From an uncultured Pelagibacteraceae bacterium (GTDB taxonomy: Bacteria; Pseudomonadota; Alphaproteobacteria; Pelagibacterales; Pelagibacteraceae), in assembly GCA_902633965.1 (NCBI GenBank), contig CACPID010000001.1, positions 75,845-139,844 of the forward strand: 64,000 nt of DNA, in the 5' to 3' direction. Every line of letters begins with the position of its first letter. Within the stretch, counting starts at the first letter, position 1. The translations under genes and the position numbers were made by a program. The notes beneath the pieces were generated by a model. The model was not told the DNA's origin. It saw only the letters and a program-made list of their open reading frames with translations, and did not search any database. Shown one piece after another: positions 2,077 through 6,779 of this stretch.

Positions 2077-3543
2077 GTGAGTCAAGATTCACCTAAATTT
2101 CAGCTATCAAATTGGGAAATTGTTTCAGTAAATCCTATTGATAAAACCTGGTCCTGGAAAGATTATTTTTGTTTTTGGGCAAATACAACACAAAGTTTAA
2201 TTGCATTCTCTTTGATTGCATCTCTTTATATATTATACGATTTAAATATAATAATTGTTTTTTGTGGAAGTATTTTTGCAGGTCTTTTAGTTTATTTCTT
2301 CTCAAATTTAATTGGCAAACCATCAAGTAAGCACGGCATTCCTTTTGTTGTATTTCTTAGAACCTCAATTGGTTTAAACGGCGCAAGGTATTTTGGAATA
2401 CTTAGGGGTTTTGTTGGAATATTTTTTTTTGGAGTTCAAACTTATTTTATTTCAAAATCAATAGGTTATTTAATTAGAATTTCATTATTCTCAATTGACA
2501 GTAGCTTTTTAGAACATGAATACCTTCTCTTATTCTTAATGGGTTTAAATTTAATTGATTGGATAAGTTTATTATTTACTTTACTTTTTCAGTATTATCT
2601 TTTTTCAAAAGGACATAAGTTTATGAAGTATTTTATAAATTTTTCAGGTCTTTTAGTTTATTTTGGTATTTTGTTTTTTTTTATTATTTTATTTGCAGAA
2701 TATAATCAACAATTACAAGACAGTTTTTTTGAAATATTAGAATTTGAAAATATTTTTGTTGAAAAAAATATTGTACCCTTTTTAACAATTACCAGTACAA
2801 TGTTTGCATATTATTCAATAGTGATCTTAAACTTTGGAGACTTTTCAAGGTATGCAAAAAATGAGAAGGAACTGAATAAAGGAAATCTTACTTTACTACT
2901 AAATTTAATAATTTTTTCTTTTTTAGCAATTTTTATAACTTTAGGATCAGATATAGTAATTAATAAAGAACTTGCTGAACCAAATCGATTTCTTACAAAT
3001 CCAACCGATATAATCGGTAAAATAAATAATACTTATTTAACAGTTACCTGTCTTTTATTTATATTGTTAGCTTCTTTATCCTCAAATTTAATAGCCAATT
3101 ATGTTCCCTCTCAAAATACTTTAATAAATTTTTTTCCAGCAAAACTTGGGTTAAAAAGTGCTGGCATTATTATAATAATTTTAGGTTTAGTAATAGGATC
3201 TCTTTGGTTAACATTTATAAGCCAATTAGGAATTTTATCATTTGTTGATACTCTTGGATCATTTTTTGGTCCATTATTTGGATTGATTATTTGTGATTAT
3301 TATTTCATTAAAAATAAAAAGATTATTAATAAAGATATTTTTTCCTCAAACAAAGATGGTGCTTATTATTACTCAAATGGGTGGCATATAAAAGGTTTAT
3401 ATGCAGTTTTTATTGGCTTTATTTTTTCTGCGGCAACAATTTGGAATTCTAATTTAAATTTTTTACAATCTTATTCTTGGATAATTGGTGCAGTTGTAAG
3501 CTTTATAATATACTTTTTATTAGTTCCTAAAAATAATGAATAA
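2077..3543 (+). CDS. NCS1-family permease (nucleobase/hydantoin/allantoin type)
   Basis: 488 aa with about 12 hydrophobic segments. The N-terminus resembles the nucleobase:cation symporter-1 family (PF02133): an Asn-Trp-Glu start, an Arg/Lys-Thr-Trp-type motif (DKTWSWKDYFCFW), then GIPFVVFLRTSIGLNGAR and a FFGVQTYF segment. This family carries purines, pyrimidines, allantoin, hydantoins or thiamine. The start is GTG at 2077, because the ATG two bases earlier runs straight into TGA. It begins 24 bases after dctM and overlaps the next gene by eight bases, so it is probably co-transcribed with the dehydrogenase. Substrate unknown. Confidence 0.85.
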   Translation: MSQDSPKFQLSNWEIVSVNPIDKTWSWKDYFCFWANTTQSLIAFSLIASLYILYDLNIIIVFCGSIFAGLLVYFFSNLIGKPSSKHGIPFVVFLRTSIGLNGARYFGILRGFVGIFFFGVQTYFISKSIGYLIRISLFSIDSSFLEHEYLLLFLMGLNLIDWISLLFTLLFQYYLFSKGHKFMKYFINFSGLLVYFGILFFFIILFAEYNQQLQDSFFEILEFENIFVEKNIVPFLTITSTMFAYYSIVILNFGDFSRYAKNEKELNKGNLTLLLNLIIFSFLAIFITLGSDIVINKELAEPNRFLTNPTDIIGKINNTYLTVTCLLFILLASLSSNLIANYVPSQNTLINFFPAKLGLKSAGIIIIILGLVIGSLWLTFISQLGILSFVDTLGSFFGPLFGLIICDYYFIKNKKIINKDIFSSNKDGAYYYSNGWHIKGLYAVFIGFIFSAATIWNSNLNFLQSYSWIIGAVVSFIIYFLLVPKNNE

Positions 3544-4282
3544 ATTTGATTTAAAAAATAAAACAGCAATAATTACTGGTGGTGCACAAGGATTTGGACT
3601 TGATATAGCCAAAAAATTTTTAGATTTTGGTGCAAAAGTCAGATTGTGGGATATTGACGAAAATGAGTTAAAAAAAGCCCAAAAAGAAATCTCGAGCGTA
3701 AATCTTGAATATGATGTAGTCGACGTATCGAATAATAAAGTTGTAAATAACACTGTAAGCAATATTTCGAAAAAATCTAAAATCGATATTTTAATAAATA
3801 GTGCTGGGATTACTGGCTCAACAGCTGAATTATGGAACTATAATGTTGATGAATGGAAAAAAATTATTGATATAAATCTCCACGGAACTTTTTATTGCTG
3901 TAAAGCAGTGGCTCCTGTGATGATTAAAAACAATTATGGTAGAATTGTAAATATTGCATCAGTTTCAGGTAAAGATGGAAATGCAAACGCAAGTGCCTAT
4001 AGTTCCTCAAAAGCAGGAGTAATAGGTCTAACCAAGTCTCTAGGCAAAGAGTTAGCCCAGTACAATATTGCAGTTAATGCAGTTACGCCAGCCGGAGCAA
4101 AAACAAGAATTTTAGATCAAATGTCAAAGGAACATGTCCAAAGAATGCTTTCAAAAGTACCACGAGGTAGATTTTTAGAAGTAGAAGAACTATCTTCTTT
4201 GGTAAGTTGGCTTTCCTCTGAAGAAAACTCTTTTTCAACCGCAGCTGTTTTTGATATAAGTGGCGGCAGGTCTACTTATTAG
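3536..4282 (+). CDS. Short-chain dehydrogenase/reductase (SDR, classical FabG-like)
   Basis: 248 aa, the usual length for a classical SDR. The Rossmann motif TGGAQGFG is at 14-21, the NSAG motif at 88-91, and the catalytic Ser-Tyr-Lys at S142, Y155 and K159. An acidic residue after the second strand (LWDID, 37-41) favours NAD(H) over NADP(H). The C-terminus ends ISGGRSTY, typical of the family. It overlaps the permease gene by eight bases, so it probably acts on the imported compound or a product of it. It is unlikely to be the fatty-acid FabG given this context, but the substrate is not known. Confidence 0.88.
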   Translation: MNKFDLKNKTAIITGGAQGFGLDIAKKFLDFGAKVRLWDIDENELKKAQKEISSVNLEYDVVDVSNNKVVNNTVSNISKKSKIDILINSAGITGSTAELWNYNVDEWKKIIDINLHGTFYCCKAVAPVMIKNNYGRIVNIASVSGKDGNANASAYSSSKAGVIGLTKSLGKELAQYNIAVNAVTPAGAKTRILDQMSKEHVQRMLSKVPRGRFLEVEELSSLVSWLSSEENSFSTAAVFDISGGRSTY

Positions 4283-4400
4283 GCTTTTTTTCTGGATAAA
4301 TAAAATTTTCAGCCTTTTTTTGATTTTCTTTAGCTATAACTGGTGCCAAAATCATTACAGACCAGTAAAGTAGAAGAGTTATTACTGTGAAAATCCTCAT
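4272..4400 (-). CDS. 42-aa single-span membrane miniprotein
   Basis: A 42-codon reading frame from ATG (complement of 4398-4400) to TAG (complement of 4272-4274). The product has one hydrophobic segment at about residues 3-23 (starting MRIFTVITLLLYW) and a charged tail ending EKKPNK. Its ATG overlaps the stop of the lipoprotein gene upstream on the same strand (the shared bases are TCAT at 4397-4400), the same ATGA coupling used by proven gene pairs in this window. Its 3' end overlaps the dehydrogenase stop by 11 bases on the opposite strand. No family is recognised. Reality rests on the coupling and the coherent membrane topology. Confidence 0.6.
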   Translation of the reverse strand: MRIFTVITLLLYWSVMILAPVIAKENQKKAENFIYPEKKPNK

Positions 4401-4603
4401 GAATTATCTCCATTTTTTTCACAGTTTTCTTTGTTAATTTTTTTATCAAAATCGTTAACACTTTTTTTATCAATCAACCATATTAATGATTTTTCGTAAG
4501 TATTATCCGCAGCAAGTTTAGTACACCTTTTACCTAATTTTACTGTGTGTGTGCTACAATTTGTCAAAAATAATAAAAGGATTGTAAATGTAATTAATTT
4601 CAT
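4397..4603 (-). CDS. Small putative lipoprotein (68 aa)
   Basis: 68 aa with a lipoprotein signal: Met-Lys, a hydrophobic stretch of residues 4-13, and a lipobox LTNC with the lipidated cysteine at residue 16. The mature part has about 52 residues with two more cysteines (C27 and C60) and is rich in Lys, Asp and Asn. No family is recognised. The gene is translationally coupled to the 42-aa membrane miniprotein downstream. It is divergent from the DUF3047 gene, with about 110 bases between the two starts that should hold both promoters. Likely an envelope protein of unknown function. Confidence 0.65.
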   Translation of the reverse strand: MKLITFTILLLFLTNCSTHTVKLGKRCTKLAADNTYEKSLIWLIDKKSVNDFDKKINKENCEKNGDNS

Positions 4604-4714
4604 AGTTTATATTTACATACACATTTTGATTTTAGATTGTCTTAAAAATGTCAAAACTATGAAAATTGATTTTTTTTATTGTTTCATTTTAACCTTAATG
4701 TATATGAATTAATT

Positions 4715-5356
4715 ATGAACATTTTATATAAAATATTTCTTATATTTATTATTTTAGGACTGCCAGCCAATGCAGATATAGTTAAAATTTTTCAATTTAC
4801 CGAGGATGAATTTAAACAACTGAAAGTAAGAAAAGTAAAGGGTGAAACAAAATGGGCCTTAGGTAGCAATGAAAATGGAAACTATATAAGAGCCGAAGCT
4901 GAGGGTACAGGCTCAGGTTTAGGCAAAGAAGTAATAATAGATCTAAACAAAACCCCTTTTATTAACATTACTTGGAAAGTTGAGAAAAATTTGTCAGGTA
5001 TAATTGAAAACTCTAAAAAAGGTCACGATTATGCTGCAAGAGTATTCGTTGTAAAAAAAACTGGATCAACAGCACTGTCTAATAGAGCAATTAATTACGT
5101 TTTTTCTAGCAATAATAATGTTGGTGAAACTTGGAGAAGTCCATATACTAAGAAATCTATTGATTATGTTCTAGCCACCACAATAAAAAATGACAATGAA
5201 TGGGTAACAGTAAAATCAAACGTTAAAGAAGATTTTAAAAAACTCCATGATCTAGATATTAGTGAACTTAATGGAGTTGCTATAATGACAGATACAGATA
5301 ATTCAAAACTAAAAGCAGTGGCTTATTACCAAAATATATTTTTCTCATCAAAGTAG
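4715..5356 (+). CDS. DUF3047-family secreted protein
   Basis: 213 aa from the chosen ATG at 4715. An in-frame ATG at 4679 would add 12 residues ahead of the signal peptide and is less likely. A Sec signal peptide is seen at residues 1-20 (hydrophobic core, then LGLPANA/D). The mature domain carries the features of DUF3047 (PF11249): ITWKVEK, a Tyr-Ala-Ala-Arg-Val-Phe-Val-Val strand, NYVFSSNN and a late ISELNGVAIMTDTDN segment. The family forms a periplasmic beta-sandwich and is often encoded near envelope genes; no biochemical role is established. The stop codon abuts the end of a minus-strand miniprotein gene. Confidence 0.8.
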   Translation: MNILYKIFLIFIILGLPANADIVKIFQFTEDEFKQLKVRKVKGETKWALGSNENGNYIRAEAEGTGSGLGKEVIIDLNKTPFINITWKVEKNLSGIIENSKKGHDYAARVFVVKKTGSTALSNRAINYVFSSNNNVGETWRSPYTKKSIDYVLATTIKNDNEWVTVKSNVKEDFKKLHDLDISELNGVAIMTDTDNSKLKAVAYYQNIFFSSK

Positions 5357-5497
5357 TTATAGTTTCGTATATTTTTTTAAGGCAAGAGTTAATAAAGATA
5401 GCAATATCGCAACTATTACATCTTCCAAAGGACTAGCCTTAGGAACTCCGAAATTCCAAATTACTACACCGATAAGCCATATTATGTAAATATTCAT
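5357..5497 (-). CDS. 46-aa membrane miniprotein
   Basis: A 46-codon frame from ATG (complement of 5495-5497) to TAA (complement of 5357-5359). The product has two hydrophobic stretches, about residues 2-17 and 27-41, separated by GVPKASPLED, and ends with KKYTKL. Two short helices joined by a Pro-containing turn suggest a hairpin membrane protein. It fills the space between the DUF3047 stop and the ybgC promoter region without overlap. No homologue is recognised. Confidence is limited by its size, but a coherent frame with this topology is unlikely to be chance. Confidence 0.55.
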   Translation of the reverse strand: MNIYIIWLIGVVIWNFGVPKASPLEDVIVAILLSLLTLALKKYTKL

Positions 5498-5550
5498 ATA
5501 ATTAAGTCTTCATTTGTACAAAATATTTTAGTAATTTTATATTAATAATT

Positions 5551-6605: not shown

Positions 6606-6779
6606 TTAGTCATGTTTATCTTTTTCAGCAAAAAATAAAGCAATTAAAAAAATTGCTGTCCAACCCAGGCCTAAAAGCGCTTTTTGTGGACTAGTTTCTG
6701 CTCCCCAAAGATTTAAAAACAAGGCTCCAAAAAGAAGACCTACAACGTATATAACGACAGCTAAACTACTTTTGCTCAT
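6606..6779 (-). CDS. 57-aa two-helix membrane miniprotein
   Basis: A 57-codon frame from ATG (complement of 6777-6779) to TAA (complement of 6606-6608). It encodes two hydrophobic helices, about residues 6-23 and 34-51, joined by a polar loop (WGAETSPQK), with a charged tail AEKDKHD. It overlaps the 3' end of the DUF1289 gene by 14 bases and ends exactly where the glycosylase begins, so all three appear to be one transcript. No named family is recognised. The tight packing between two recognisable genes is the main evidence that it is real. Confidence 0.7.
   Translation of the reverse strand: MSKSSLAVVIYVVGLLFGALFLNLWGAETSPQKALLGLGWTAIFLIALFFAEKDKHD

Follow-up and report, generated by a model that had tools for sequence, protein, structure and literature searches.

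A conserved single-span miniprotein of Pelagibacteraceae, its accessory putative lipoprotein and the operator-like array in front of them

Two overlapping minus-strand frames, LIPO (a putative lipoprotein of 68 amino acids) and MINI (a single-span protein of 42 amino acids), are conserved in relatives of the analyzed Pelagibacteraceae genome well beyond chance, together with their 4-base overlap, but they are not an obligate pair, as each of them occurs without the other. MINI is the more widely kept of the two in the genus, and LIPO is accessory. Our preferred, still tentative reading is that MINI may be a small subunit that regulates a membrane protein, with a dedicated operator, while LIPO would be an accessory. 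The features of the locus in the window (the whole analyzed stretch of 64,000 nucleotides) are as follows.

4397..4603, minus strand: LIPO, 68-aa putative lipoprotein, lipobox LTNC (Cys16), Cys27 and Cys61 invariant
4272..4400, minus strand: MINI, 42-aa single-span protein, core YWSxxxxAPV, tail P..KP
4397..4400, minus strand: ATGA start/stop junction of LIPO and MINI, kept (as ATGA, TTGA or CTGA) in 68/68 relatives with both genes
4407..4411, minus strand: GGAGA, Shine-Dalgarno-like stretch for MINI within LIPO, a similar stretch being present in 64/67 relatives
4627..4665, minus strand: operator-like array TCA-N8-ACA-N8-ACA-N8-TCA, with C at 4661, 4650, 4639 and 4628
4654-4649, minus strand: TTGACA inside the operator-like array
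4715..5356, plus strand: divergent neighbour upstream of LIPO, DUF3047 protein, a conserved flank in the genus
3536..4282, plus strand: convergent neighbour, SDR oxidoreductase, missing beside MINI in some relatives

Both frames lie where the sequence-only reading had placed them, with a cysteine at residue 16 of LIPO, a single span followed by a tail in MINI, and the ATGA junction at 4397-4400. The 3' end of the SDR gene overlaps the last 11 bases of MINI. In the inspected genus loci without LIPO, MINI occupies the same place, divergent from the DUF3047 gene and before the NCS1/dct block, the SDR gene standing between MINI and this block in most, not all, of them. The neighbours are constant within the genus only, and are different in the other two genera that carry the pair (L122, L126). 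One locus (L139) carries LIPO and MINI identical to the window copies. Small membrane-type frames of 46 and 57 amino acids (window positions 5357-5497 and 6606-6779, both on the minus strand) recur in place in many syntenic loci.

The protein search for LIPO in 201 genus genomes yielded 20 loci, and 19 of them have both frames and the 4-base overlap; the 20th (L020) was a chance match inside an SDR gene and was excluded from the counts. In the second collection, comprised of titled genome contigs (80 of 185 confirmed LIPO loci were kept), MINI is found at the same junction in 68 of the 80 LIPO loci. MINI starts with ATG or TTG at the 4-base overlap in 67 of these 68 junctions, while the last one (L211) has CTG there. 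Conservation of both frames and of the overlap, suggested earlier as a check on the pair, is thus observed. Lack of conservation or disruption of the 42-codon frame had been named as counter-evidence; the frame is conserved, with one broken copy among relatives, as L214, one of the 12 LIPO loci without MINI, retains a decayed MINI frame in which YWS reads YRI.

Start codons differ between the two arrangements. Behind LIPO, MINI starts with TTG in 52 cases and with ATG in 15 (n=67), while MINI standing alone starts with ATG in 19 cases and with GTG in three (n=22). Weak TTG starts behind LIPO, and ATG or GTG starts elsewhere, are expected if the upstream gene supplies ribosomes to MINI, and translation of the two genes is probably coupled.

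Synonymous changes greatly exceed non-synonymous ones in both genes. The pooled dN/dS is 0.097 for LIPO and 0.124 for MINI, falling to 0.094 in the first 23 codons of the latter (38/67 loci, divided into five sets of relatives; apart from the 23-codon test, only pairs of equal length were used), the ratios being rough, since one set has up to 0.56 synonymous differences per site. This pattern indicates that LIPO and MINI are real genes under purifying selection.

The LIPO alignment contains the window sequence and those from 49 of the 80 loci, the other 31 being omitted as near-copies or partial sequences; L213 was left out due to a stop inside its given range. Invariant in all 50 sequences are Cys16, Cys27, Cys61 and W42. 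The protein starts with a signal peptide and a lipobox ending in the invariant Cys16 (LTNC, or LTGC in three rows of a separate LIPO set); Asn at position -1 of a lipobox is unusual. The Pfam family LPAM_1 was reached at E <=0.1 by only two of the 50 rows (best E 0.0032). The AlphaFold2 model has the mean pLDDT of 60.7, which is too low to use. LIPO is thus a putative lipidated protein of the envelope type.

Neither LIPO nor MINI produced anything above noise in Pfam, NCBIfam, PADLOC or PDB sequences (the NCBIfam search for MINI used the window protein only), consistent with the earlier description of an element of unknown function. The best PHROG matches (E 0.0073 for MINI and 0.0043 for LIPO) are both to families of unknown function, and no description of the locus was found in the literature covered, to which most subscription journals do not belong.

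The region upstream of the first gene contains four ACA/TCA trinucleotides with exactly 8 bases between them, that is, with an 11-bp period. Of the 143 loci collected, 16 without DUF3047 in reach were dropped (L108, L209 and 14 out-of-genus or partial ones), and the array was counted in 124 of the remaining 127, as three upstream regions were identical to others or short. C occurs at positions -58, -47, -36 and -25 from the LIPO start in 57 of 64 distinct upstream regions with LIPO, and at the same four offsets from the MINI start in 58 of 60 regions without LIPO; the other seven and two regions, respectively, have no C at these offsets. Elsewhere in the upstream regions C averages 7-8%, with one further conserved C at -32. 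Since the distance from the array to the first start codon is fixed, the loci differ as if LIPO had been inserted or removed exactly between two start codons, and the spacing to the coding start is constrained, which would agree with a very short leader.

In 15 genomes, the exact array was found at this locus in nine, six having no exact form although MINI or LIPO is there. Outside the locus, nine exact arrays were found, compared to ten for the reversed-pattern control; all nine lie inside open frames of 243-655 codons, and two recur in a second genome. With exact matching, the array is a mark of this locus and not of a larger gene set.

Direct repeats with an 11-bp period are the form of OmpR/PhoB-type operators, and the array has the arrangement that would be expected for two dimers of such a regulator. 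Read on the DUF3047 strand (TTGTCTTAAAAATGTCA), it resembles what we take to be a Pho box. We do not favour control of DUF3047 by PhoB, as the spacing is fixed relative to LIPO/MINI and the array persists in L195-L198, loci from other genera where LIPO stands first and DUF3047 was not found beside the array. An RNA element was rejected (no Rfam match over 4000-5500), as was a leader peptide, since in the window MINI has no gene on its own strand immediately after it.

Four genes for proteins with the winged-helix domain are present in each of six genomes. None of these 24 regulator loci is preceded by the array (p 0.11-0.94 against shuffles, a comparison that degenerate arrays would escape); in the same test, nine of 12 LIPO/MINI control rows had p <=0.02, and the LIPO-alone rows L189, L193 and L202 behaved like shuffles. 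Three of the regulator groups are, as we assume from their sequences, ChvI, PhoB and OmpR; for L285, read as ChvI, the best 25 NCBIfam matches contain only sub-cut-off ones, to response regulators of the OmpR/PhoB kind. ChvI came into consideration because of the N8 spacing: its consensus in Sinorhizobium meliloti is quoted as N-GCC-N8-GCC (PMC9731502), and the array shares with it the trinucleotide direct repeats, the N8 between them and the 11-bp period. Unlike these sites, the array is formed by ACA/TCA, has four repeats, and its exact form exceeds chance only at this locus; it was not found before the SAR11 genes read as chvI. A winged-helix protein of ~190-240 amino acids, seemingly without a receiver domain (Pfam: L298), is encoded in each of six SAR11-family genomes (L295-L300), and this orphan protein could be a candidate binder of the operator.

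The two genes differ in phylogenetic range. MINI profile matches occur in 115/201 genus genomes (20/29 near-complete ones), compared to 19/201 for LIPO. In the order draw, MINI was found in 95/197 genomes, all 95 from the genus of the window (E <=0.001), and in the class draw of 190 genomes only in the window's own genome. The family, order and class searches yielded confident MINI in no genus beyond that of the window, g6 and g13, and this limitation to three genera argues against a universal function. LIPO profile matches, in turn, were found in 146/297 genomes of the family, covering eight of its 14 genera. The order search for LIPO covered 247 genomes, counted without a split between those in and out of the family, and its one match outside the family (G523) is a chance frame. 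Weak LIPO matches (E >1e-4) were inspected at nine of 19 places: the eight places within the genus hold other lipoproteins or chance frames, and the one from another family (L241) is a chance frame. LIPO thus appears to be absent from those genus genomes rather than relocated, as judged from these 9/19 places.

An overlapping LIPO-MINI pair in other surroundings is found in genera g6 and g13, and LIPO without MINI behind it in g2, g4, g7, g9 and g12 (for example, L218 from HIMB114). In six loci of g7, g9 and g12 (L123, L124, L125, L129, L130, L133), the lone LIPO is followed by a frame that by eye resembles a cold-shock protein. MINI-like matches in g4 were set aside: ten of the 11 loci inspected (L244-L248, L253-L256, L258) encode a different conserved family of 40-aa membrane proteins, MKTIFLFF...RPVTKKE (MKTIFLFF..IYIAYYLFRPVTKKEIKKFNDPDNWSNMGF), and the remaining one another frame. 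In our judgment, this family is likely unrelated to MINI, a very distant link being possible.

Mapped on the tree of 125 DUF3047 proteins (125 of the 127 loci), the presence of LIPO changes seven times, and at least three changes are forced by well-supported branches. In some loci of g4, g6 and g13 (L195-L198), too, LIPO is the first gene after the same array, which makes repeated loss of LIPO the simpler reading, though the tree is unrooted.

The MINI tail is associated with the presence of LIPO. Of the 64 loci with LIPO, 61 have the strict P..KP tail, compared to 12 of the 61 loci without it, and the tails diverge widely in loci without LIPO. The tree provides three independent pairs on supported branches, on average 2.1 of them going the expected way and 0.1 the opposite one; the sign test allowing for the tree is not significant (median p 0.5, three pairs). 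The association is thus a lead, not a result, and a weaker partnership of LIPO and MINI is possible.

These data bear on two alternatives to the preferred reading. LIPO and MINI could be unrelated small envelope genes that a streamlined genome economically places behind one promoter; that different lineages have kept either gene on its own, and that the two differ in range, agrees with such an arrangement. We consider it possible but rather unlikely, given the 4-base junction kept in all 68 loci with both genes and the tail tracking LIPO.

The second alternative, which we find unlikely, is a dedicated two-part envelope complex in which inner-membrane MINI would reach outer-membrane LIPO via its tail. 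It would account for the junction being kept in 68/68 loci, for the tail counts (61/64 against 12/61) and for the direction of the independent pairs, but each of the genes is conserved in the absence of the other, tailless MINI still stands behind LIPO in L198 and L210, and the sign test yields the median p of 0.5. The Rz/Rz1 spanins, a two-component lysis pair, similarly consist of a small inner-membrane protein and a lipoprotein encoded by overlapping genes. Unlike them, LIPO and MINI have the reversed gene order, are chromosomal and conserved, and each is kept without the other; moreover, with at most ~30 residues outside the span, MINI is too short to cross the periplasm as Rz does. The two-component envelope element proposed in the sequence-only reading therefore stands as two small genes of envelope type with a conserved overlap and probable coupling, and falls as an obligate pair.

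Conservation within MINI points to its membrane part. In the window, one hydrophobic span is followed by the tail KENQKKAENFIYPEKKPNK. Among 22 diverse sequences, M1, L9, Y12, W13, S14 and P20 are invariant, A19 and V21 are nearly so, and the tail is variable. The orientation with the N terminus inside is predicted from Lys or Arg in position 2, by the usual rule for this topology. The length of MINI is mostly 22-52 amino acids; the exception, a frame fused in frame with a Lon protease lacking its N terminus (L102, G147:C20:11074), is probably an assembly artefact and was set aside. Four of 90 natural MINIs end just past the span (L198 at 24 amino acids, L210 at 22, L250 at 22 and L257 at 25), stopping 2-5 residues beyond AP. 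Together with the invariant span residues, these truncations favour a peptide acting within the membrane over a secreted one, so that the core of MINI is best described as a predicted intramembrane peptide YWSxxxxAPV.

A secreted product, which seems quite unlikely, would arise by cleavage of a signal peptide after VIA (residue 23) and consist of the ~19-residue tail. V-x-A before the tail of the window protein does fit the -3/-1 rule of signal peptidase, and the P..KP tail is conserved in the LIPO loci; but most of the invariant residues lie in the hydrophobic part, the ends of the four short variants fall from one residue ahead of the predicted cut to two residues past it, and the tails are widely divergent when LIPO is absent.

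Homologues of MINI (38 amino acids) were also found on three T4-like pelagiphage contigs, whole in two of them and from residue 14, at the contig end, in the third.

L220, 1594-1710: MINI homologue
L219, 12-128: MINI homologue
L232, 2-76: MINI homologue, partial

L219 and L220 encode a single-stranded DNA-binding protein with 75.8% identity to the one from Pelagibacter phage Mosig, and a part of L220 resembles genes of Mosig and HTVC008M. The L220 copy matches a chromosomal MINI (G400, L252; the native locus, as judged by DUF3047) in 100 of 117 bases (85% DNA identity), the L219 copy matches it in 28 of 38 residues, and the L220 upstream region has no array. Transfer from host to phage would be the simplest direction. 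No convincing MINI was found in 50,697 phage records (best E 0.5), and no LIPO was found in the viral contigs. L220 contains a second single-span frame of 37 amino acids (1459-1572) just ahead of MINI. That MINI is a toxin-like or holin-like membrane-active peptide under tight control, sometimes borrowed by phages, seems very unlikely: it would agree with the size of mostly 22-52 amino acids and one hydrophobic span, with the phage copies, and with the endolysin and exonuclease genes that in the related phage HTVC008M precede the late-transcription gene (the one following MINI in L220) by four to five genes, but MINI is normally present as one copy in one chromosomal place, with strong selection on specific residues, no antitoxin gene was noticed at the locus, PADLOC gave no match, and neither did Rfam for an antisense RNA.

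The regulatory-subunit reading has parallels among bacterial small membrane regulatory subunits such as CydX, KdpF, AcrZ and MgtS. Like them, MINI has ~20-50 amino acids, one span, conserved intramembrane residues and a little-constrained tail, and unlike them, it has no Pfam or NCBIfam match and no adjacent partner complex.

For topology, lipidation, disulphide bonding, coupling, regulator class, docking and every function, we infer the following scheme. MINI would be a single-pass inner-membrane protein with the N terminus inside and the tail outside, and its intramembrane face YWSxxxxAPV would dock on a membrane protein of the cell and tune it. LIPO would contribute a lipidated, probably disulphide-bonded periplasmic domain of 53 residues, including the lipid cysteine, and would be an accessory in the same response, perhaps acting via the P..KP tail of MINI. 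When both genes are present, their products would be made together by translational coupling over the 4-base overlap. The four 11-bp-spaced repeats would set transcription of whichever gene stands first, through two dimers of an OmpR/PhoB-type regulator.

A more far-reaching version, speculative and in our estimate highly unlikely, is an envelope switch of SAR11: a four-site operator specific to one locus would drive a ~22-residue intramembrane peptide tuning a core membrane complex, optional outer-membrane LIPO would signal the envelope state via P..KP, with the tail decaying upon LIPO loss, and phages would carry copies without the operator. If so, an operator-less phage copy would release the peptide from control by the host while infection proceeds.

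SAR11 cells have lost the majority of their regulators and accessory genes. Despite this streamlining, more than half of the genus genomes (115/201) keep a membrane peptide of 22-52 residues and a near-invariant array. The natural variants without LIPO, without the tail or without MINI are ready-made genetic comparisons, and MINI itself, kept with or without LIPO and acquired by phages, may offer a tractable handle on how SAR11 bacteria manage their envelope.
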